Shown here one piece after another: positions 8,467-39,202 of a stretch of DNA of 39,204 nt. The first letter of the stretch is position 1. Every line of letters starts with the position of its first letter. The stretch is from the NCBI RefSeq assembly GCF_009711975.1, contig NZ_VIKW01000038.1, forward strand, positions 1 through 39,204. Reading direction: 5' to 3'. Under the pieces are notes generated by a model that saw only the letters and a list, made by a program, of their open reading frames with translations, was not told where the DNA came from and made no database searches. The translations under genes and the position numbers were made by a program. The DNA comes from Anabaena sp. UHCC 0204. Lineage in GTDB: Bacteria; Cyanobacteriota; Cyanobacteriia; Cyanobacteriales; Nostocaceae.

Positions 8467-9480
8467 GTGATTAGAGTTGCAATTAACGGTTTCGGGCGCA
8501 TTGGACGTAACTTCGCACGCTGCTGGGTAGGTAGAGAAAACAGCAATATTCAACTGGTCGGTATTAATGACACATCCGATCCTAGAACTAATGCTCACTT
8601 GCTTAGATATGACTCCATGCTAGGTAAATTGCATGGTGTAGACATTAGTGCTGATGATAACTCCATCACCATTAATGGTAATACAGTTAAGTGCGTATCT
8701 GATAGAAACCCCGATAACTTGCCCTGGAAAGAGTGGGGAATTGACCTGATTATCGAATCAACAGGTGTATTTACCAGCAAAGAAGGGGCTATGCGGCACG
8801 TAAATGCCGGAGCTAAAAAGGTTCTGATTACCGCTCCTGGCAAAAATGAAGATGGTACTTTTGTAATCGGTGTAAATCATGAGGATTATGACCACAACAA
8901 ACATAACATCATCAGTAATGCTAGTTGTACAACCAACTGTTTAGCTCCAATTGCCAAGGTATTAGATGAAAAATTTGGTATCATCAAAGGCATAATGACC
9001 ACTACCCACAGCTACACAGGTGATCAGCGTTTACTAGACGCTTCCCACCGTGATTTGCGTCGGGCTAGAGCAGCAGCTATCAACATTGTTCCTACTTCCA
9101 CTGGTGCAGCAAAAGCAGTAGCTTTGGTACTTCCTCAGTTGAAGGGTAAGTTAAATGGTGTTGCTTTGCGTGTACCAACTCCTAACGTTTCCATGGTGGA
9201 TTTCGTAGTGCAAACTGAAAAGCGCACTATTACCGAAGAAGTTAACCAAGCTCTTAAGGCTGCGGCTGAAGGTCCTCTGAAAGGCATTTTGGGTTACACC
9301 GAATTGGAACTTGTATCTTCTGATTATCAAGGTACAAATGAATCTTCTATCGTTGATGCCAATTTAACTATTGTTATGGGTAATGACATGGTGAAAGTCA
9401 TGGCATGGTATGACAATGAGTGGGGTTATAGCCAACGTGTTCTAGATTTGGCTGAATTAGTAGCTGCAAAATGGGCTTAA
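8467..9480 (+). CDS. gap2: Glyceraldehyde-3-phosphate dehydrogenase, Gap2 (Calvin-cycle type)
   Basis: A 337-residue GAPDH that interconverts 1,3-bisphosphoglycerate and glyceraldehyde 3-phosphate. The start is GTG at 8467, preceded by AGAGG at 8451-8455. This places the Rossmann motif [16 protein letters not shown] at the N-terminus, whereas the longer ATG frame from 8404 adds 21 unrelated residues. The active-site cysteine is C154 in SNASCTTNC. The nucleotide-binding strand ends VGINDTSD without the acidic residue that favours NAD only, as expected for the cyanobacterial and plastid-like Gap2 that can use NADPH in carbon fixation. [21 protein letters not shown] and the WYDNEWGYS end are typical. 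It converges on thiL. Confidence 0.95.
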
Positions 9481-30026: not shown

Positions 30027-30092
30027 ATGACCCCAGATATTTTTACAATGATGTTATTAGACAAAATTATTCTAAAAGCCTATGCAGCCTAA
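30027..30092 (+). other. Possible 21-codon upstream frame overlapping the clpB start
   Basis: ATG at 30027 opens a frame of 21 codons that ends with TAA at 30090-30092, eight bases past the first base of the clpB ATG (30082) and in a different frame. The peptide would be mixed hydrophobic and basic, with [10 protein letters not shown] inside. It could couple translation to clpB, but a frame of this size can arise by chance and no strong ribosome site is seen. Confidence 0.2.
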
Positions 30093-32700
30093 TAACCCCA
30101 ATCAATTTACAGAAAAAGCCTGGGAAGCGATCGCTCAAACCCCCGATATCGCTAAACAGTACCACCAACAGCAACTAGAAAGTGAACACCTGATGAAAGG
30201 GTTGCTAGAGCAGGAAGGACTGGCCAGTGCGATTTTTACCAAAGCCGGTGCAAATCTGCAAAAAGTCCGCGATCGCACAGAGCAATTTATTCAACGTCAA
30301 CCCAAGGTATCTGGAACTAGCACTTCTGTTTATTTAGGGCGAAGTTTAGATACACTGTTAGATCGGGCAGAAAAATATCGTCAAGAATTTAAAGACGAAT
30401 ATATTTCTATTGAACATTTACTGCTGGGTTACGCCAAAGATGACCGTTTTGGTAAAGGTCTCATCCAGGAATTTGGTTTAGATGAAAACAAACTCAAAAA
30501 TATTATTAAAGAAATTCGGGGGAATCAAAAAGTGACAGACCAAAATCCAGAAGGTAAGTATCAATCACTGGAGAAATATGGCCGCGATCTCACAGAAGCC
30601 GCCCGTAAAGGTCAACTAGACCCTGTAATTGGTCGTGATGATGAAATTCGTCGGACGGTGCAAATTCTCTCCCGTCGTACCAAAAATAACCCGGTTTTAA
30701 TTGGTGAACCTGGCGTTGGTAAAACTGCGATCGCTGAAGGTCTAGCACAACGCATAGTAGCAGGTGATGTTCCCCAATCTCTCAAAGATCGGAAATTGAT
30801 TAGTTTGGATATGGGAGCTTTAATTGCCGGAGCAAAATTCCGAGGTGAATTTGAAGAACGGCTCAAAGCAGTATTAAAAGAAGTTACCGAATCTGGCGGA
30901 AATATTGTTTTATTTATTGATGAAATTCATACCGTTGTCGGTGCAGGTGCAACCCAAGGGGCTATGGATGCCGGTAACTTATTAAAGCCGATGTTAGCAC
31001 GGGGTGAGTTACGCTGTATTGGGGCGACAACTTTAGACGAATATCGCAAATATTTGGAAAAAGATGCAGCTTTGGAAAGACGCTTCCAACAAGTTTATGT
31101 AGATCAGCCAAATGTCCAAGATACAATTTCGATTTTACGCGGTTTAAAAGAACGCTATGAAGTTCATCATGGGGTGAGAATTTCTGATAGTTCCCTCGTG
31201 GCTGCGGCTACTCTCTCTAATCGTTATATTAGCGATCGCTTTCTCCCCGACAAAGCCATTGATTTAGTTGATGAAGCCGCTGCTAGACTGAAAATGGAGA
31301 TTACATCCAAACCCGAAGAACTCGACGAAATAGACCGGAAAATTCTCCAATTAGAAATGGAGAAACTCTCCTTACAAAAAGAAATTGATCCTGCTTCCCG
31401 CGAACGTTTAGAAAGATTAGAAAAAGAACTAGCTGACTTCAAAGAAGAACAAAGAACTCTCAGCAGTCAATGGCAATCTGAGAAAGATATTATCACCAAA
31501 ATTCAGTCAATTAAAGAAGAAATTGACCGTGTTAACTTAGAAATTCAACAAACAGAAAGAAACTATGATCTCAACCGGGCTGCGGAATTAAAATATGGCA
31601 TATTAACAGACTTACAGCGAAAATTAGCCGCAGTCGAAAGTGAACTTTCTCAAACCCAAGGCACAGGCAAATCTCTATTACGAGAAGAAGTCACAGAAGC
31701 CGATATTGCCGAAATTATTTCTAAATGGACAGGAATTCCTCTTAATAAATTAGTGGAATCAGAAAAAGACAAACTCTTGCATTTAGAAGATGAATTACAT
31801 CATCGTGTCATCGGTCAACATGAAGCCGTCACCGCTGTAGCTGATGCCATTCAACGTTCTCGCGCTGGACTCTCTGACCCCAACCGTCCCATTGCCAGTT
31901 TTGTCTTCCTCGGTCCAACAGGTGTGGGTAAAACCGAACTCGCTAAAGCCTTAGCAGCCTATATGTTTGACACAGAAGAATCCTTAGTGCGGATTGATAT
32001 GTCCGAATATATGGAGAAACACGCCGTCTCTCGCTTAATTGGTGCGCCTCCCGGATATGTCGGTTATGAAGAAGGAGGACAATTAACCGAAGCCATTCGT
32101 CGTCGTCCCTATGCGGTGATTTTATTCGACGAAATCGAAAAAGCCCACCCTGACGTTTTTAATATATTCCTGCAAATTCTCGATGATGGTAGGGTGACAG
32201 ATGCCCAAGGTCGAACAGTGGACTTTAAAAATAGTATCATTATCATGACCAGTAACATCGGTTCTCAATACATCCTTGATATATCTGGAGATGACACCCG
32301 TTACGATGAAATGCGTAATCGAGTAATGGAAGCAATGCGTAGTAGTTTCCGTCCAGAGTTCTTAAACCGTTTGGATGAACTAATTATTTTCCACAGTTTA
32401 CAAAAATCAGAATTGCGGAATATTGTCCAATTACAAGTAGATAGGTTAAGACAAAGATTGAGTGACAGAAAAATGTCTTTGAAATTATCTAATTCTGCTA
32501 TTGACTTTTTAGCAGAAGTAGGATATGATCCTGTATTTGGTGCAAGACCATTAAAACGAGCTATTCAACGGGAATTAGAAACCCAAATAGCTAAAGCCAT
32601 TTTACGGGGTGACTTTAGCGACGGTGACACCATTTTTGTAGATGTTGAAAATGAGCGTCTTTCCTTTAATCGTTTACCCGCAGAAGTATTTACGAGTTAA
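30082..32700 (+). CDS. clpB: ATP-dependent disaggregase ClpB
   Basis: An 872-residue Hsp100 chaperone that, with DnaK, extracts polypeptides from aggregates in the cytoplasm. The Clp N-domain covers about 1-145. The first AAA module has Walker A GEPGVGKT (208-215) and Walker [15 protein letters not shown]. The ClpB-specific middle coiled coil lies at about 405-530. The second AAA module has Walker A GPTGVGKT (611-618) and [16 protein letters not shown]. The absence of a ClpP-binding loop fits ClpB rather than ClpA/C. The length equals that of cyanobacterial ClpB. No CIRCE operator is seen upstream. The hairpin at 32749-32777 is a likely terminator. Confidence 0.96.
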
Positions 32701-32828: not shown

Positions 32829-32942
32829 GTACTATAGCGGTATGCACTTGAGTGAGATACAGTCAGCCAATTGCAAACCCTGTAGGGGCGCAGGGTCTGC
32901 GCCCTAAATTGTATTGCATCCTACCGATAACCGCTATAGTAC
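32829..32942. mobile_element. MITE-like element with GTACTATAGCGGT ends
   Basis: A 114-base element with perfect 13-base inverted ends, GTACTATAGCGGT (32829-32841) and ACCGCTATAGTAC (32930-32942). Inside is a GGGCGCAG...CTGCGCCC hairpin (about 32885-32904) of the kind seen next to thiL. It encodes no protein. It lies between convergent clpB and the nucleotidyltransferase-like gene. Confidence 0.65.
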
Positions 32943-32998
32943 ACAACGGCGTAAATAAACCAACCATTAAGAATTCTCAAAAAGCTTGTGTTATCTGC

Positions 32999-33028
32999 TT
33001 TTTTAATTTTTAATTTTTAATTTTTAAT
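32999..33028. repeat. TTTTTAA short tandem repeat
   Basis: Four to five copies of TTTTTAA overlap the 3' end of the nucleotidyltransferase-like gene, whose stop codon is at 33017-33019. The last few residues (GGIKN) are encoded by the edge of this repeat and an adjacent CCGCCCTGCGG palindrome, so the true C-terminus may have been altered. Confidence 0.55.
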
Positions 33029-34144
33029 TCCGCCCTGCGGTACTAGCCTTTTTATGCCTTTAATCATTGCATGATATGGAATTTGCCACGAATTTTCTAA
33101 CCCCCAAAGATATTGTAGATACTTAGTAAAGCCTAAAAAATTTGATTTCCCATTTTCATCAGATACCATTCTTACATATTGGTAATATCTCAAATTTAAA
33201 CGATCTAATACGCTATTATTCTCCTTCCTCATAATCTGATATTCACGATCTTCAAAGTTAGAAATGGGTAAATTGATTATCTGCGTCAAAATTGAAGATG
33301 GGATAGAAATATTTAAAATTTCCTGTAAAGCCGTGAGCAGATTTTTTAGTCCCCAAACAAAGCGGTATTCTTGGGCTTTGATAACTAACTGATTCCAGTC
33401 AATTTGATTTTCTGAAGCATTGATAATAATTGCAGCATCAGCTAGTTTATTACTTGACATAGCCTGATTTTTTAACCCTGCACAAATATACAATAACTGA
33501 TATGTTGGATTTAAAATATTTATTTCTAATTCACCCAATTGAGTAATTATTATATTTTCCCAAAAATCATGTTCAGCTTTTTCTGAAAAGCCATCTGCGA
33601 ATAAATGCCACCGCAAAATCAAAAATTGATTGGCACTGTTTTTAAATCCTATCGCTTGGGAAAATAGTAAAATTTCTTGAGGTATCTTTCCTGTCGCTTC
33701 CCAACCAAGATTTTGCAATAAATTAATCCCCATTAAAGCATCTGAGGAATGAATCAATAATTCTAAATTAGGCATCATTCGTAATCCATTATCGTGGTAA
33801 TAATGGAGATTTAACGCGGCATCTTTAAGTAATAGAGTTTTAATTCCCTTTTCTGAAAAAGACTGTAAAATTGGGGCAATGGCTTGAAATAAAACTTGAT
33901 TTTCTACCCAAGTGCGTCGGTAAACTCCCTTCAGTCTTCCTATATGCACATCTATCACTTCCTGTGCAGATAAATTGCGATAAAGTAAAGGCAATAAACG
34001 ATAAGATTCAGTATCTAAATCTTCAATATCAACAGTCTCTCTCCATTGCTTCCAGGAATCAAACCCCGCTTCTTCTGATAAGAATGCTGCTTGCAAAAGC
34101 AATTTTTTCTCGTTAGTAAGTCCAGAATTTTCTTGATTATTCAT
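33017..34144 (-). CDS. PF14907-like nucleotidyltransferase family protein with altered active site
   Basis: A 375-residue protein resembling the uncharacterised nucleotidyltransferase family PF14907, found beside lasso-peptide and other peptide-modification genes. Matching parts are ILQSFSEKGIKTLLLKDAAL, YYHDNGLRMMPNLELLI (115-131), LLQNLGWEA and the RWHLF strand. Family members I recall read KGAAL and RPMSDIDLLV at these sites. Here the glycine after K107 is D108, and the two metal-binding aspartates appear as N126 and E128. Ordinary two-metal catalysis is therefore doubtful; it may be an altered enzyme or a binding subunit. It is the last gene of the seven-gene minus-strand run, starting two bases from the SMP-30-like stop codon. 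The C-terminus runs into a TTTTTAA repeat. Confidence 0.75.
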   Translation of the reverse strand: MNNQENSGLTNEKKLLLQAAFLSEEAGFDSWKQWRETVDIEDLDTESYRLLPLLYRNLSAQEVIDVHIGRLKGVYRRTWVENQVLFQAIAPILQSFSEKGIKTLLLKDAALNLHYYHDNGLRMMPNLELLIHSSDALMGINLLQNLGWEATGKIPQEILLFSQAIGFKNSANQFLILRWHLFADGFSEKAEHDFWENIIITQLGELEINILNPTYQLLYICAGLKNQAMSSNKLADAAIIINASENQIDWNQLVIKAQEYRFVWGLKNLLTALQEILNISIPSSILTQIINLPISNFEDREYQIMRKENNSVLDRLNLRYYQYVRMVSDENGKSNFLGFTKYLQYLWGLENSWQIPYHAMIKGIKRLVPQGGIKN

Positions 34145-34146
34145 GA

Positions 34147-35091
34147 TTATACTTTTATCCCTGGAATATTAACTCTAATCTTGTAAACTGAGGTAGAAGC
34201 TGTAATATAAAGACTTTGGTAATCTTCATCTCCCCAAGCACAATTTGCTGGTACTTCTGGAGTCACAATTGTTCCTAAATGATTTCCTGCTAAATCAAAA
34301 ACCCAAACTCCACCACCACCAGTACAGTAGATATTTCCTTGCGCGTCTATCTTCATTCCATCTGGTAAACCGGGTTTTTCGACTTTCATATCATAAAAGA
34401 TCCGTCCATTGCTAAGTGTTCCATCAGATTGAACATCAAAAACTCGGATATGACGGCGTTCGGAATCATCTATATACAGCTTTTTTTTATCAGGTGAAAA
34501 TGCTAAACCATTTGGTTTGAGAAAATCATCAGCTAAGAGAATAATTTCTTTGGTATCTGGTGAAAGTCTATATACTCCTTGAATTGGTTGTTCCTGTTGT
34601 TCGGGTTTAATCCCATAAGGGGGATCTGTAAAATAAATAAACCCGTCGCTTTTAACAACGACATCATTAGGACTATTGAGTTTTTTACCTTGAAATGTAT
34701 CAGCTAAAACGGTAATTGAACCATCATTTTCTGTGCGGGTAACTTGACGTGTACCATGTTCGCAAGCAATCAATCGTCCTTGTTTATCTCTAGTTAAACC
34801 GTTGGAATTATGGCTAGGTTCTCTAAAAATTGTTAATTCACCATTAGGTGTGAGTTTATATATTTTATTGGCTGGAATATCGCTAAATAGGAGATACTTT
34901 TCTTCAGTAAACCAAATCGGTCCTTCTGTAAATTGAAATCCTGTAGCTACGCGCTCAATTTTCGCATTTTTAGGAAAGAGGGTTTTAAATATTGGAGATT
35001 TTGCCTCTAATCTACCTGGTGCTAATTTTTGAGTAAAAATTGCAGCTATTCGTTTGATTTTTCTATTAATCCGTTGAACAATATGAAACAT
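34147..35091 (-). CDS. SMP-30/gluconolactonase/LRE family beta-propeller protein
   Basis: A 314-residue protein of the SMP-30 family, divalent-metal lactonases or hydrolases with a six-bladed propeller. The probable metal ligands are E56 in FTEGPIW, N142 in LNSPNDVVV, N194 in KPNGLAF and D208/D209 in YIDDSER. LLFSDIPANKIY and YFTDPPYGI are also typical. The N-terminus (about 1-30) is basic and not clearly a signal peptide. Its substrate is unknown. In the run it lies 32 bases after the SDR gene and two bases before the nucleotidyltransferase-like gene, so tight co-expression is likely. A lactonase acting on a sugar-acid or peptide-linked lactone is possible but not shown. Confidence 0.87.
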   Translation of the reverse strand: MFHIVQRINRKIKRIAAIFTQKLAPGRLEAKSPIFKTLFPKNAKIERVATGFQFTEGPIWFTEEKYLLFSDIPANKIYKLTPNGELTIFREPSHNSNGLTRDKQGRLIACEHGTRQVTRTENDGSITVLADTFQGKKLNSPNDVVVKSDGFIYFTDPPYGIKPEQQEQPIQGVYRLSPDTKEIILLADDFLKPNGLAFSPDKKKLYIDDSERRHIRVFDVQSDGTLSNGRIFYDMKVEKPGLPDGMKIDAQGNIYCTGGGGVWVFDLAGNHLGTIVTPEVPANCAWGDEDYQSLYITASTSVYKIRVNIPGIKV

Positions 35092-35123
35092 TATATTTAT
35101 GCAAAAAAAATAAATAGGGTTGT

Positions 35124-36023
35124 TTATTCAGGCGGATTTTGAGCAACACGATAATTATATAATGTTGTGCCACCATCAATTTTTAGAACCGTTCCCGTCG
35201 TGAATTTTGAAAAGTAATCTGAGGCTAGATAAACAGCCGCTCTACCAATATAACAAGGAGAGATAGAACAACCATGCAATAGATTATATTCGATACTCAA
35301 TGGTTGTTTTTGCTCATCTTCCGCTACCCAACTGGGAGCAATTCCATTGACTCTTATTTTGTATGGGGCTAAGTCTACTGCTAATTCTTTGATAATCATC
35401 CCTAATGCTGCTTTGGAAGAACTATAACTAGGCCAACGAACAACTGTTTCTTGGTGGATAGAAGTCATAAAAATAATAGAACCTTGAATAGAATTACTCA
35501 CCATCATTTGGGAGATAAGTTTGGTAAGGTACATGGGACCAAATACATTAGTTTGAAAGATTTTTTGCCATTCTCCTAAATCTAAGTTATTTATCCCAAT
35601 TGTTTCAAATTGAATGCCTACATTATTGACAAGAATATCAATTATGATTTTGTTTTCCTCTAAAATGCTATATAAATAATCAATATTTTCAGGTTTTGAT
35701 ATGTCTAAAACAAAGCCTCTTACCTTAACTGGATAAGTATTTAATTCTTTTTCTAAGTTTAAACATCCTTCCTCAACAATATCTGTGAAGAAAATATTTG
35801 CACCTTGTTTAGCCATTTCAATAGCGATACTTTTGCCAATATTTTTTGCTGCTCCGGTAATAAGAACATTTTTTCCAGCTAAAAGCTGATTATCTAAAAC
35901 TAATGAAGGCTCTACAGTTTTGACTAAAATTTTCGGTTTGAGAGTAGGTATCGGATCGAGGAAGGCTTTTGATGCGGCTTTAAAACGCATTCTAATGTTA
36001 TTTAACTTGGTTTTTAAGTTCAT
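35124..36023 (-). CDS. Short-chain dehydrogenase/reductase
   Basis: A 299-residue SDR enzyme using NAD(P)H. The cofactor motif is TGAAKNIG (56-63), the structural motif NNVG is at 133-136, and the catalytic residues are S188, Y200 and K204 (YSSSK). The C-terminal part with LKIDGGTTL is typical of classical SDRs. About 48 N-terminal residues precede the Rossmann fold, longer than usual and without a recognised motif (NLKTKLNNIRMRFKAASKAF, basic). The N-terminal extension may be a targeting or docking segment. It sits between a glycosyltransferase and the SMP-30-like gene with short gaps, so it may act on the same product. Confidence 0.9.
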   Translation of the reverse strand: MNLKTKLNNIRMRFKAASKAFLDPIPTLKPKILVKTVEPSLVLDNQLLAGKNVLITGAAKNIGKSIAIEMAKQGANIFFTDIVEEGCLNLEKELNTYPVKVRGFVLDISKPENIDYLYSILEENKIIIDILVNNVGIQFETIGINNLDLGEWQKIFQTNVFGPMYLTKLISQMMVSNSIQGSIIFMTSIHQETVVRWPSYSSSKAALGMIIKELAVDLAPYKIRVNGIAPSWVAEDEQKQPLSIEYNLLHGCSISPCYIGRAAVYLASDYFSKFTTGTVLKIDGGTTLYNYRVAQNPPE

Positions 36024-36061
36024 ATCATATCCGTGAATTATAAGCCATCAATTTGAATATC

Positions 36062-36751
36062 CTAATCTTTAGTGCGACGACGATCTAGTGATGCTTTGAG
36101 AATCTGAATATATTCAGTCTGATATTGTTTTTTCTGAATTCCTTTATTGGTTTCATGCAGTCGCCGCTTGGCTACTAAATCGGGTAACATCATTGTTTGG
36201 AGTCCTATCTCTGTCAGACGTACTTGCCAACTAGCAAATTCGGCTAATTTCCAATGAGTTTCAAATAAACCAACCCGAAAAAAAGACTCTCTTTTTATTA
36301 GCAGTGCTGAAGGAATATGTCCCGGCATTAATTTATCGGGAACGTACAGTTTTGCTTTCAGATTGTCTGCCAATTCTGGACTAATAAACTGTTCAACCTG
36401 TCCAAATACAACATCAAGATTGGGGTTATTTATAAATGCTGCCATTTGGCGTGTTAATTTATCCTCTACCCAAAGGTCATCTGCATCAAGAAAGGCAAAA
36501 TAATCGCCTTTGGCTAATTCTAAGCCTCGATTACGAGCCGCCGCAGTACCACTGTTGACTTGACAACAATACTGCACTACAGAACCAAATCCCTTGGCTA
36601 TTTCTGCACTAGCATCAGTTGAACCATCATCTATAACGATAATTTCTAGGGGCTGATAGGTTTGAGCTAGTACACTTTCTATGGCTTGGGCTAGATACTT
36701 TTCGCAATTGTAAACTGGAATAATGACGCTGATTAAAAGGTTTTTGTTCAT
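36062..36751 (-). CDS. Glycosyltransferase family 2 (first of two, downstream copy)
   Basis: A 229-residue GT-A fold glycosyltransferase that transfers a sugar from a nucleotide sugar. SVIIPVYNCEKYLAQAIESV is followed by the nucleotide-binding DDGSTD (41-46), NSGTAAARNRGLELAKG, and the metal-binding DADD (89-92). It lacks membrane segments and is short for the family, a compact domain ending soon after an acceptor-site region with RRLHETNKG. It is a paralogue of the gene immediately upstream (36824-37576), sharing the same order of motifs. The sugar and acceptor are unknown; the setting suggests a peptide or small-molecule acceptor. Confidence 0.92.
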   Translation of the reverse strand: MNKNLLISVIIPVYNCEKYLAQAIESVLAQTYQPLEIIVIDDGSTDASAEIAKGFGSVVQYCCQVNSGTAAARNRGLELAKGDYFAFLDADDLWVEDKLTRQMAAFINNPNLDVVFGQVEQFISPELADNLKAKLYVPDKLMPGHIPSALLIKRESFFRVGLFETHWKLAEFASWQVRLTEIGLQTMMLPDLVAKRRLHETNKGIQKKQYQTEYIQILKASLDRRRTKD

Positions 36752-36823
36752 GCTTATTCTTGCTCCAATTTTTGATTGCGTTTACGTTCAATTGATTGTC
36801 TCATAATCTTTTAACGGTTGAAT

Positions 36824-37576
36824 TCAAGGAGGACTACCAAGATATTCATTAATTGGCATATCTAATAAAATATTAGTTGGAGATATTTGTTTTTTTCGGA
36901 TTCTATCTAAACGTTTCTTGTATATTTTGATAAATCCCAGTTCAACTAAATTTTTCCCCTCAGTCATATTTTTTTGATGTTTTCGATAAAACAGCATTAC
37001 CTGATCTATAAGAACCTTGGATATCCCATTTTCCCAGGCTCGGATAAACCAATCTACATCTTCAGCATAATTGAGTGTTTCGTCAAAAATGCCAATTTTT
37101 TCAAATACAGATTTCCGATAAATTGCGCTCCCTAAATTAATATAGTTGTAAGGTTTATAGACAGGTTCAAATATAGGTTTTTTATCAGATGTCAGTTGTG
37201 ATAAATTCATTTGTTGAATTAATCCTTGTACAATCTCTACCGAGGTATTATCTGCCAAATAATTTCCTTGCACTTTCAGTTTATCATCCGACCAAATATC
37301 GTCAACATCCAAAAAGGCAATTGCATCACCATTTGCTATTCTTATCCCTCGGTTTCGAGCAGCCGATGGACCACTATTTTCTTGATAAATATAGCGGATA
37401 CTGTCCTTGAATTCGGCAGCTATTTCCGCAGTTTTATCTGTTGAACCATCATCAATGACAATAATTTCTAACGGCTGATAATTCTGATTTTTGACATTTT
37501 CAATGGCTTCTACTAGATATTTTTCTCCATTAAAAACTGGAATAATAACGCTAACAAATAATTTTTGATTTTCCAT
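36824..37576 (-). CDS. Glycosyltransferase family 2 (second of two, upstream copy)
   Basis: A 250-residue GT2 enzyme paralogous to the next gene of the run. It shows SVIIPVFNGEKYLVEAIENV, DDGSTD (42-47), NSGPSAARNRGIRIANG and DVDD (90-93), in which the usual DADD is changed at one position outside the metal ligands. The RKHQKNMTEG segment near the end parallels RRLHETNKG of the other copy. It starts three bases from the HPr-kinase-like stop codon, so translation is probably coupled. It most likely works with the kinase product or with the second transferase. Confidence 0.92.
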   Translation of the reverse strand: MENQKLFVSVIIPVFNGEKYLVEAIENVKNQNYQPLEIIVIDDGSTDKTAEIAAEFKDSIRYIYQENSGPSAARNRGIRIANGDAIAFLDVDDIWSDDKLKVQGNYLADNTSVEIVQGLIQQMNLSQLTSDKKPIFEPVYKPYNYINLGSAIYRKSVFEKIGIFDETLNYAEDVDWFIRAWENGISKVLIDQVMLFYRKHQKNMTEGKNLVELGFIKIYKKRLDRIRKKQISPTNILLDMPINEYLGSPP

Positions 37577-37579
37577 TTT

Positions 37580-38665
37580 CTATTGTTTTGTAATGAGATT
37601 GGAAATTACTTGAGGGATTTGCTCTAAATCAGTCCCCAGTTCTAAATAATAACAAGGAACTTGTTTCAAGACTTGCATCATAATTTGACAAGCTTCTTTC
37701 CCCGCACCTGCTAATTGAATCATCGTACTTGGTACAAGTGAAGCTAAAGCGGCAGCGGCAGAGGTAGCTGTTAAAGAAGTATCTTTTTTTCCCGTAATGC
37801 GGGGAACTAAAACTGCCCGAATGGGACAACTTTTCAATATTTTTTCCGGAAAATGTTCGTTAATAAAATAAACGGCTTTTTCTGAATCTAGGCGATCGCT
37901 ATTACTAATAGCTTCAGCCAAAAATGGTAATCTATTCACATCATCGGCATTTTTTTTGCCTGTATTGTAGATGCTAAATACCGTTGGTATAGGTTCACAG
38001 GTAATTAAACTGTAATCGTCACTGGCATAAAAAAGCTCTGAATTAATACAACTTAAAGCCGTTGTTGATTTTCCCGAACCTCCTTTTCCTACTAACAACA
38101 CACCACCGCTGGAAAGTCCCACCGCACCTGCATGAACCAGTTGTATTCCCCGTTTACTCATCCAGACATTCAAAATAGTTCGTAGCGGTGAACCGGTTTC
38201 CCAATAGGGAATTTGTTCTGTCGTATCTACCCAATAGATGCCTAAATTGCGATCGCTATCTAACAAACTCAATGCAAACGCACCCCATTGGAAACTCGTA
38301 TGAATGCGATCAGTATTGAATCCGTAAATTTCTCCACGCTTAGGATGATGATGATTTCTACCCCAAGGTGGTGGTGGCATAATTGTGTTTGTTGATGTAC
38401 TATCCCACAAACAAACTGTTAAATCGGGATTAACAACAGGCTCAATTTCTAAATGTCCTAAAGCCGGAGTTTGATAAGGAATTAAAGCCTCTCCAGCAAA
38501 TCGCAACTGAATTTTAAAACCACCAATATCATAAAACCGATTAACTGCACCACCCACAGATGCTTCGGCTTTTTTGTATAGTTCATAAATTGAATCAAAA
38601 AAAGCGATTGGGTCTTTTTTCTCTGTTTCAATTAAGTTTTCTGATTCTTCAATATCGGGTTTCAT
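37580..38665 (-). CDS. HPr-kinase-like P-loop protein
   Basis: A 361-residue protein whose C-terminal half matches the HPr serine kinase (HprK) fold. The P-loop is GKGGSGKST (193-201), preceded by H178 in LVHAGAVG, and followed by SDDY (D216-D217) in the Walker B-like position. The first 160 residues are unlike the HprK N-terminal domain. No HPr or sugar phosphotransferase system is expected in this type of organism. Proteins of this group occur in lasso-peptide clusters, where some phosphorylate the peptide. It lies 84 bases downstream of the PqqD-like gene and three bases upstream of a glycosyltransferase gene. The substrate here is unknown. Confidence 0.83.
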   Translation of the reverse strand: MKPDIEESENLIETEKKDPIAFFDSIYELYKKAEASVGGAVNRFYDIGGFKIQLRFAGEALIPYQTPALGHLEIEPVVNPDLTVCLWDSTSTNTIMPPPPWGRNHHHPKRGEIYGFNTDRIHTSFQWGAFALSLLDSDRNLGIYWVDTTEQIPYWETGSPLRTILNVWMSKRGIQLVHAGAVGLSSGGVLLVGKGGSGKSTTALSCINSELFYASDDYSLITCEPIPTVFSIYNTGKKNADDVNRLPFLAEAISNSDRLDSEKAVYFINEHFPEKILKSCPIRAVLVPRITGKKDTSLTATSAAAALASLVPSTMIQLAGAGKEACQIMMQVLKQVPCYYLELGTDLEQIPQVISNLITKQ

Positions 38666-38699
38666 TATTTATTTTCACTTATATTTTTAACATTGATTT

Positions 38700-38727
38700 G
38701 GTTGGGTTGAGATCAGAAAACCCAACC
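38700..38727 (-). terminator. GGTTGGGTT hairpin in the pqqD-kinase gap
   Basis: GGTTGGGTT (38700-38708) pairs perfectly with AACCCAACC (38719-38727), nine base pairs with a ten-base loop. It lies within the 84-base gap between the PqqD-like and kinase genes. It resembles a dispersed cyanobacterial palindrome and may lower read-through into the downstream genes. On the minus strand AATGTTAAAAATA follows rather than a strong U-run. Confidence 0.45.
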
Positions 38728-38749
38728 TACATAAATTCTGTTAATTGAT

Positions 38750-39202
38750 TTAAACCTTGGCACTCGGCCAACCCATTTCCGGCTCTACATCATGGATGGG
38801 ATCTAAAGCCAGCAATTCTTCCATATCTGTATATTTATTTAAAACTGGTGGTTCAAATTTTAGCTTTTCTGTAGCTTCTGTTGGAGAGTTATCTTTATCT
38901 GTATAGGTTTGATTTTCTCCATCAGTTGTATCAATACTAATTAAATTTTCGCGCTGCAATTCGGAAATTAAATTGTTAATAGCGGTGGCAATTGTTTCGC
39001 TGCTGCTGTCGTAACCACTAACTATTTTTGCCAAAATCTCACCTCTGGAAAGACCTCTAGCTAGTTTTTCCCAAATATCTGCTCCGACTGTCACCAAACT
39101 ATAATAATCTCCCCCCTCCAGATTGACGATAACTACTTCACCTTCAATCATTTCGTGGACAACCTTCGGGACATTGATTTTAAATTTTTCAGATAAATTC
39201 AT
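38750..39202 (-). CDS. PqqD-like peptide-recognition protein with distinctive C-terminal tail
   Basis: A 150-residue protein. Residues about 8-92 match the PqqD/RRE fold that binds leader peptides in ribosomal-peptide pathways (VVHEMIEGEVVIVNLEGGDY, YSLVTVGADIWEKL, AINNLISELQRENLI). An acidic, Thr/Asn-rich linker (92-113) follows, then a tail (115-150) with PPVLNKYTDMEELLALDPIH, an acidic stretch and GWPSAKV. No other PQQ gene is seen, so this is not PQQ synthesis. The ATG at 39202 is two bases from the window edge; the start is plausible because it precedes the conserved domain directly, but a longer N-terminus cannot be excluded. It is the first visible gene of the seven-gene run. Confidence 0.83.
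   Translation of the reverse strand: MNLSEKFKINVPKVVHEMIEGEVVIVNLEGGDYYSLVTVGADIWEKLARGLSRGEILAKIVSGYDSSSETIATAINNLISELQRENLISIDTTDGENQTYTDKDNSPTEATEKLKFEPPVLNKYTDMEELLALDPIHDVEPEMGWPSAKV

Follow-up and report, generated by a model that had tools for sequence, protein, structure and literature searches.

Which peptide, if any, is the substrate of a run of modifying enzymes at the end of a cyanobacterial contig? The stretch analyzed here, hereafter the window, is the entire contig C31 (39,204 bases) of the 5.7 Mb genome of Anabaena sp. UHCC 0204, and it carries seven consecutive minus-strand open reading frames (ORFs) at 33017-39202, separated from left to right by gaps of 2, 32, 38, 72, 3, and 84 bases. 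A preliminary description gave these positions and gaps exactly, and its labels PqqD, glycosyltransferase family 2 (GT2), short-chain dehydrogenase/reductase (SDR), SMP-30, and PF14907 were borne out by Pfam scores. It took the run for a set that phosphorylates and glycosylates a ribosomally synthesized and post-translationally modified peptide (RiPP) in a lasso setting, with the precursor outside the window. A RiPP recognition element (RRE), an HprK-like kinase, and a PF14907-type NTP transferase together make up the enzyme set of phosphorylated RiPPs, namely linear polyphosphorylated peptides (LPP) and paeninodin-type lasso peptides (PMC13381572, PMC8498205). Addition of phosphate and sugars to a peptide is the probable function of the operon. 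We propose, with middling confidence, that it is a phospho/glyco-tailoring system in which the RRE has a precursor-like peptide attached in cis, as the tail of the PqqD protein.

A recognition protein with a conserved tail

The PqqD protein (38750-39202, minus strand; PF05402, 46.8 bits) consists of an RRE at about residues 8-92, a variable linker at 93-115, a near-invariant tail at 116-146, and the last residues 147-150. The RRE domain is of the lasso B1 type. Its nearest solved structure is TbiB1, a lasso RRE solved with its leader, which was matched by the family profile at E=3.8e-18 and by Foldseek at E=9.7e-6 with a root-mean-square deviation of 1.0 over 84 columns, and the winged helix-turn-helix fold (bbb-aaa) agrees with both the AlphaFold secondary structure and the TbiB1 match; the NCBIfam model lasso_PqqD_Bac gave 48.3 bits, below its cut-off of 80. 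The tail, FEPPVLNKYTDMEELLALDPIHDVEPEMGWP (38765-38857, minus strand), has the consensus FExPxLxKYTDMxxLLxLDPIHEVDExGWP, in which a leader-like FxxPxL part is followed by a LxLDPIH[DE]V...GWP part. Its start resembles a lasso leader, and LPP and lasso leaders have in common a [Y/W]xxPx[L/V/I/F/A] motif to which the RRE binds (PMC13381572).

Selection of the loci does not explain the presence of the tail, because 40 stretches for comparison were chosen by the kinase alone. In the kinase search, 7 of 60 relatives matched, as did 41 of 388 genomes from the order, counting the source genome, and the 40 stretches came from 38 of the other 40 genomes, G143 and G377 being left out. A PqqD homolog was found in 39 of these 40 HprK-selected stretches, L069 being the one without, and 38 of the 39 PqqD proteins carried the tail. 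In the exception (L064:10960-12650) a gene that by eye is transposase-like lies between RRE and tail, and this locus was for that reason rejected as a natural split of the two parts. Mean pairwise identity in the HprK-selected set was 78% for the tail versus 52% for the RRE, with the tail higher in 739 of 741 pairs, and a tail stripped of the LxxDPIHxV pattern still had 74% identity (736/741 pairs). An alignment of 65 sequences across phyla, in which the window was joined by 64 of 80 loci from a wider scan described below (16 were omitted as near-duplicates or randomly, among them L174 with its shortened tail), gave 71% for the tail versus 39% for the RRE, and 63% for the tail outside the pattern (2057 of 2080 pairs). 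Residues P119, D126, M127, L130, L131, L133, D134, P135, I136, H137, and V139, and likewise G144, W145, and P146, were invariant or changed in one or two of the 65, and in the leader-type motif position 116 was F, Y, or W in 65/65, with the P present in 64/65 and the L in 59/65. Codon comparison of the window with the related locus L039 gave seven silent and one changed in the tail, and four silent and eight changed in the linker.

The AlphaFold model of the PqqD protein, built on the 65 sequences, had local confidence scores (pLDDT) of at least 90 in the RRE blocks, 47 at residues 101-110, 88 at 111-120, 73 at 121-130, and 51-53 at 131-150, and a strand was predicted at tail residues 122-124. 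The model thus predicts order in the leader-like part of the tail, which may be docked in the RRE cleft, with the core-like part possibly free. In the mechanism that we propose, the FxxPxL start would occupy the RRE cleft of its own chain, as a lasso leader occupies it in trans, and this cis docking would present the LLxLDPIHEVDExGWP segment to the HprK-like kinase and the adjoining GT2. The kinase would then add phosphate, and sugars would be added by the GT2s and by NTb, a PF14907 protein with a D-x-D motif, of which a second PF14907 protein, NTa, would be the degenerate partner. The tail might be the acceptor for a phosphoglycan, possibly exported, or a hub recruiting the enzymes. A broader version, in which a pan-bacterial family joins RRE and precursor in one protein and the docked leader-like segment presents the nearly unchanging peptide LLLLDPIHEVDETGWP, phosphorylated and glycosylated on the RRE by a kinase-GT2 pair to yield a conserved-core (resembling PQQ or mycofactocin) or carrier-bound glycophosphopeptide scattered over about a dozen phyla, is offered as a tentative and rather doubtful extension.

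Lasso and LPP machinery

The contig stops at 39204, 2 bases beyond the PqqD start. L039 is matched by the window end down to base 8932 and by the start of contig C55 from base 8940 down, and since these matches are nearly continuous C31 and C55 abut. The next gene on C55 is NTb (C55:247-1482), so the unit comprises eight genes; homology of L039 with C55 stops shortly past NTb, and the later ORFs look unrelated by eye. The preliminary description had looked to the sequence past 39204 for a lasso cyclase or B2 protease, and neither was seen there. The B2 transglutaminase-like peptidase (PF13471) had no match in the source genome, and the asparagine-synthetase-like cyclase (PF00733) had none at E<=1e-5 on C31 or C55, the source-genome matches lying on C80 (two) and C17 only. 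With these results a lasso cluster running past the contig end was rejected. A truncated or split lasso cluster, with cyclase and peptidase elsewhere, would agree with the B1 type of the RRE and with genome G156, where a lasso-like B2 peptidase and two PF00733 genes (G156:C3:4229420-4240170) lie 10-21 kb from the RRE-tail cluster, but it is very improbable given the absence of PF13471 from the source genome and from 32 of the 51 genomes searched, and the location of the source PF00733 matches on other contigs. Among the 19 genomes with PF13471, G156 was the only one with a match near its own cluster; in the other 18 the match was on another contig or megabases off, many contigs being short. 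Comparison of gene order in relatives likewise gave homologous runs without a peptide-processing gene, G156 being a partial exception. What stands of the earlier reading is a phosphorylation and glycosylation set, as RRE, HprK, PF14907, and GT2 recur together; its lasso frame is without support.

A scan for small ORFs with a [YW]xxPx[LVIFA] start found three such ORFs around the operon of the window, a single one in L039, and none in the related locus L129. Two of the three in the window overlap known genes, neither L039 nor L129 has an equivalent of the third (32852-33013, plus strand), and none of the four looked convincing, which left the operon regions of the window, L039, and L129 with no accepted separate precursor in a scan that did not extend to F-type motifs or to the rest of the genome. 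Nor was a separate precursor with the LPP motif YxxPxVLxHQxIxFETxxS and a variable C-terminus seen in the operon region, and the sequence of the RRE tail differs from that motif and is near-invariant. The peptide element that we propose instead is the tail itself.

The closest published system is LPP of Bacillota (PMC13381572). Both have an RRE, an HprK-like kinase, and an NTP transferase as separate genes, a [Y/W]xxP-type motif, a glycosyltransferase-rich setting, a patchy distribution, and no cyclase, and an MsbA-like exporter occurs in relatives of the window operon (10 full ABC exporters among 101 neighbors) but not among its eight genes. In contrast to LPP, the RRE protein here exceeds discrete-RRE length, NTa is degenerate, the leader-like peptide is fused to the RRE, the putative core is near-invariant where LPP cores vary, no separate precursor was seen, kinase and GT2 are fused in some phyla, and occurrence reaches far beyond Bacillota. 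The archaeal-type SpI of LPP (LppS; TIGR02228) was over cut-off in none of the 51 genomes, a sub-threshold match in the source genome lying 61 kb into C55. The operon is thus a variant of LPP rather than a member, because kinase, transferase, and RRE were found whereas the peptidase, an exporter in the window, and a separate precursor were not. Paeninodin-type and pseudomycoidin lasso peptides also have a lasso-type RRE, and there the kinase phosphorylates a Ser of the peptide and the phosphate receives one or two hexoses from a nucleotidyltransferase (PMC8498205); they differ in that here no B2 peptidase or cyclase accompanies the cluster and no separate precursor was seen.

According to surveys of RREs, peptidase and cyclase accompany only about 4,000 of the nearly 8,000 RREs recognized by lasso models, and 21% of PF05402 proteins are larger than a discrete RRE yet have no other Pfam domain (PMC7470986, PMC12710340). 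The RRE-tail family may be among these orphan lasso-model RREs or long PF05402 proteins (over 110 amino acids), and in the accessible text of the surveys neither the tail nor the HprK-GT2 linkage is described. No description of the tail or of HprK-GT2 fusions was found in the portions examined of the lasso and RRE literature, and text searches with the tail motif strings gave no match, few subscription journals being covered in either case. RRE mining seeks a separate small precursor, and a family with a leader-like peptide in cis would be missed or filed as a lasso false positive.

Mycofactocin and PQQ are peptides with conserved cores made with a PqqD-type protein, and a GT2 attaches sugar to mycofactocin, which SDRs use. 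The present operon differs in having a kinase, in the fusion of the peptide to the RRE, and in the lack of radical SAM proteins among the 25 of 43 neighbor families listed.

Kinase, transferases, and accessory genes

The HprK-like kinase (37580-38665, minus strand) was only weakly matched as a single sequence (PF07475, 18.1 bits, E=0.002, cut-off 33.3; TIGR04352, 23.9 versus 200 bits). The label that it had received is backed by the family profile, which reached the HprK chains 1jb1 and 2qmh at E of about 4e-7 over some 55 residues, and by an AlphaFold model (pLDDT 93.4) whose best PDB matches were phosphoenolpyruvate carboxykinase (PEPCK). HprK and PEPCK belong to one superfamily. In 104 distinct aligned sequences, window included, the P-loop and acidic pair were conserved in 102-104, with H178, G198, and K199 in all 104, S200, D216, and K263 in 103, and D217 in 102. 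The two short GT2 genes, GT2a (36824-37576) and GT2b (36062-36751), both on the minus strand, scored 127.4 and 127.9 bits with Pfam; GT2a has 250 amino acids and GT2b 229. HprK was fused to a GT2 in 12 loci, kinase-first in eleven and GT2-first in one (L069), and the fused GT2 domain scored higher against GT2a than against GT2b in 12/12, by a narrow margin in L169. One genome (G591) has a single chain in which, with domains read by eye, RRE and tail are followed by a second RRE-like stretch and HprK.

Partners were counted in the 59 of the 80 loci with flanks of 2.5 kb or more on the left and 5 kb or more on the right. HprK was present in 55 of these, PF14907 in 48, short GT2s in 57 (2.8 each), and ABC proteins in 34, the last count being the least safe since any ABC ATPase may match the model and an ordinary ABC ATPase of L039 fell in the group. 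Recurrence of the same genes together in relatives indicates that the grouping is not chance. A Pfam tally of 101 of 206 ORFs, in which 16 of 24 loci were represented (the title is non-cyanobacterial for 15 and lacking for one) and 25 of 43 families were listed, gave GT2 42, PF14907 12, HprK 12, ABC exporter 10, and GT1 8 among the 101 neighbors, and neither cyclase nor peptidase was among the families listed. An ordinary polysaccharide locus (capsule, exopolysaccharide, or hormogonium-type), with PqqD and HprK as regulators, could account for this abundance of GT2 and GT1 and for the likeness of some loci, those of family f47 described below, to glycan clusters; LPP clusters, too, lie in capsule loci (PMC13381572). 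We regard it as improbable, because the GT2s are short and kinase-fused in 12 loci and because RRE, HprK, PF14907, and GT2 remain linked across loci as other genes vary.

NTa (33017-34144, minus strand) is a real PF14907 member, as its 88.2 bits exceed the cut-off of 31.2, and it has N-x-E where most PF14907 relatives examined have D-x-D. D-x-D is taken as the catalytic motif of the family, and NTa is probably a pseudo-enzyme. Counted in proteins of 300-540 amino acids, some NTa being poorly aligned at the motif (L110, L190), D-x-D was present in 33/33 distinct NTb, 15/16 f47 proteins, and 31/72 distinct NTa. NTa lacked D-x-D in 30/30 loci with NTb and had it in 31/42 loci without NTb, some of the latter being short contigs; the sequences are related, hence these counts are not independent events. 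Many cyanobacteria have two such paralogs per cluster with complementary motifs. Given the fusions and the pairing of an active with a degenerate PF14907 protein, the roles of two enzyme families about which little is understood could be tested within a single operon.

The SDR (35124-36023, minus strand; 146.9 bits) and the SMP-30/gluconolactonase-like protein (34147-35091, minus strand; SMP-30/SGL, 203.9 bits) had been given roles in oxidation and lactone chemistry. The genes are there, and they look accessory, with SDR in 24/40 and SMP-30 in 20/40 cyanobacterial stretches and neither family among those listed for the 16 other loci.

Spread of the family and the role of the tail

When a profile made from 22 tails was run on a sample of 386 genomes of the phylum, 29 matched, and all 32 tail matches lay in frames of at least 150 amino acids, no stand-alone tail peptide being seen. 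Twenty of the 29 genomes were in f47, a family outside the class whose genomes measure 1.6-2.5 Mb and whose members may be Gastranaerophilales-type non-photosynthetic bacteria; the spread of the pathway would then include non-photosynthetic small-genome lineages of the cyanobacterial phylum. In 16 of the 20 f47 loci, those examined, the RRE-tail protein was present in 16/16 and the kinase and an adjoining PF14907 relative each in 15/16, mostly with glycosyltransferase arrays. In L112 (7850-9346) and similar f47 loci HprK has about 500 amino acids and adjoins a separate RRE-tail protein; in the one scanned, the C-terminal stretch weakly matches the PqqD model.

The wider scan, of a species-genome collection (84,980 genomes by its description), gave 560 stretches with the pattern, of which 310 were confirmed and the best 80 kept. 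The titles of these best 80 of 310 loci name Cyanobacteria, Nitrospirota, Bacteroidetes, Ignavibacteria, Chloroflexota, an anammox bacterium, Acidobacteria, Deltaproteobacteria, Lentisphaerae, Bipolaricaulota, Gamma- and Alphaproteobacteria, Aminicenantes, Bacillota, and Gemmatimonadetes, so that the tail family reaches about a dozen phyla, and single phylum titles may be wrong because most loci are metagenome-assembled. The tail was readable in 79 of the 80. The remaining one, L174 (10001-10393; Nostoc sp. NMS4), stops early, with the tail end lost and no HprK found nearby, and looks like a decaying cluster.

Several points weigh against the proposal. The 80-locus scan itself used the tail pattern, and for this reason the conservation argument rests on the HprK-selected set; the codons are less clear-cut between the window and L129 (tail three silent and two changed, linker seven and five). 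The tail has no invariant Ser, Thr, or Tyr: T125, the best candidate phosphosite, is T or S in 57/65, is S, N, or D among f47 members, and was rejected as not invariant, whereas the characterized LPP kinase requires Ser (PMC13381572). The putative core hardly varies, contrary to LPP cores, and release of a peptide is unexplained because the search of the cluster turned up no peptidase. The tail is also retained in three Chloroflexota loci (L158, L178, L185) that gave no match to HprK or PF14907, so that a strict tie between tail and HprK was rejected. Docking in cis is suggested by pLDDT and secondary structure only, and the five models spread from 80.6 to 71.0 in mean pLDDT. Variability of the hydroxyl residues, constancy of the core, retention in the three loci without HprK, and the missing peptidase would all fit a tail that stays unmodified, an autoinhibitory or docking peptide blocking the RRE until displaced by a true precursor or partner, or recruiting kinase and transferases, with a glycan, a lipid, or a peptide from another locus as the true substrate, as would the position of the module at the head of glycosyltransferase arrays in most f47 loci. 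We consider this alternative possible but not probable: the operon region held no convincing precursor, and DPIHEV...GWP is near-invariant though this part falls outside the leader-like motif and is predicted to be flexible. Under the proposal of a precursor-like peptide in cis, conservation of the tail suggests a peptide pathway with recognizer and substrate in one protein, and near-invariance across phyla, which secreted natural products do not usually display, speaks for a common product or mechanism, perhaps a housekeeping one.

The three Chloroflexota loci all have ABC-type matches. AMP-binding ligases with a phosphopantetheine site occur in L158 and L185, a lipid-A-acyltransferase-like domain in L185, and a sulfotransferase in L178 and L185.

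The operon is patchily inherited among cyanobacteria. In the genus a PqqD homolog was found in 4/16 genomes, counting the source genome; G013 has the same eight-gene order, and G012 and G014 have another arrangement and 45% identity in PqqD. In a check of mobility by an empty site, the two flanks of L039 mapped to separate contigs of the source genome, C2 and C18. The operon is adjoined in the window by an ORF of 872 amino acids (30082-32700, plus strand) that by eye looks like a ClpB-type chaperone.

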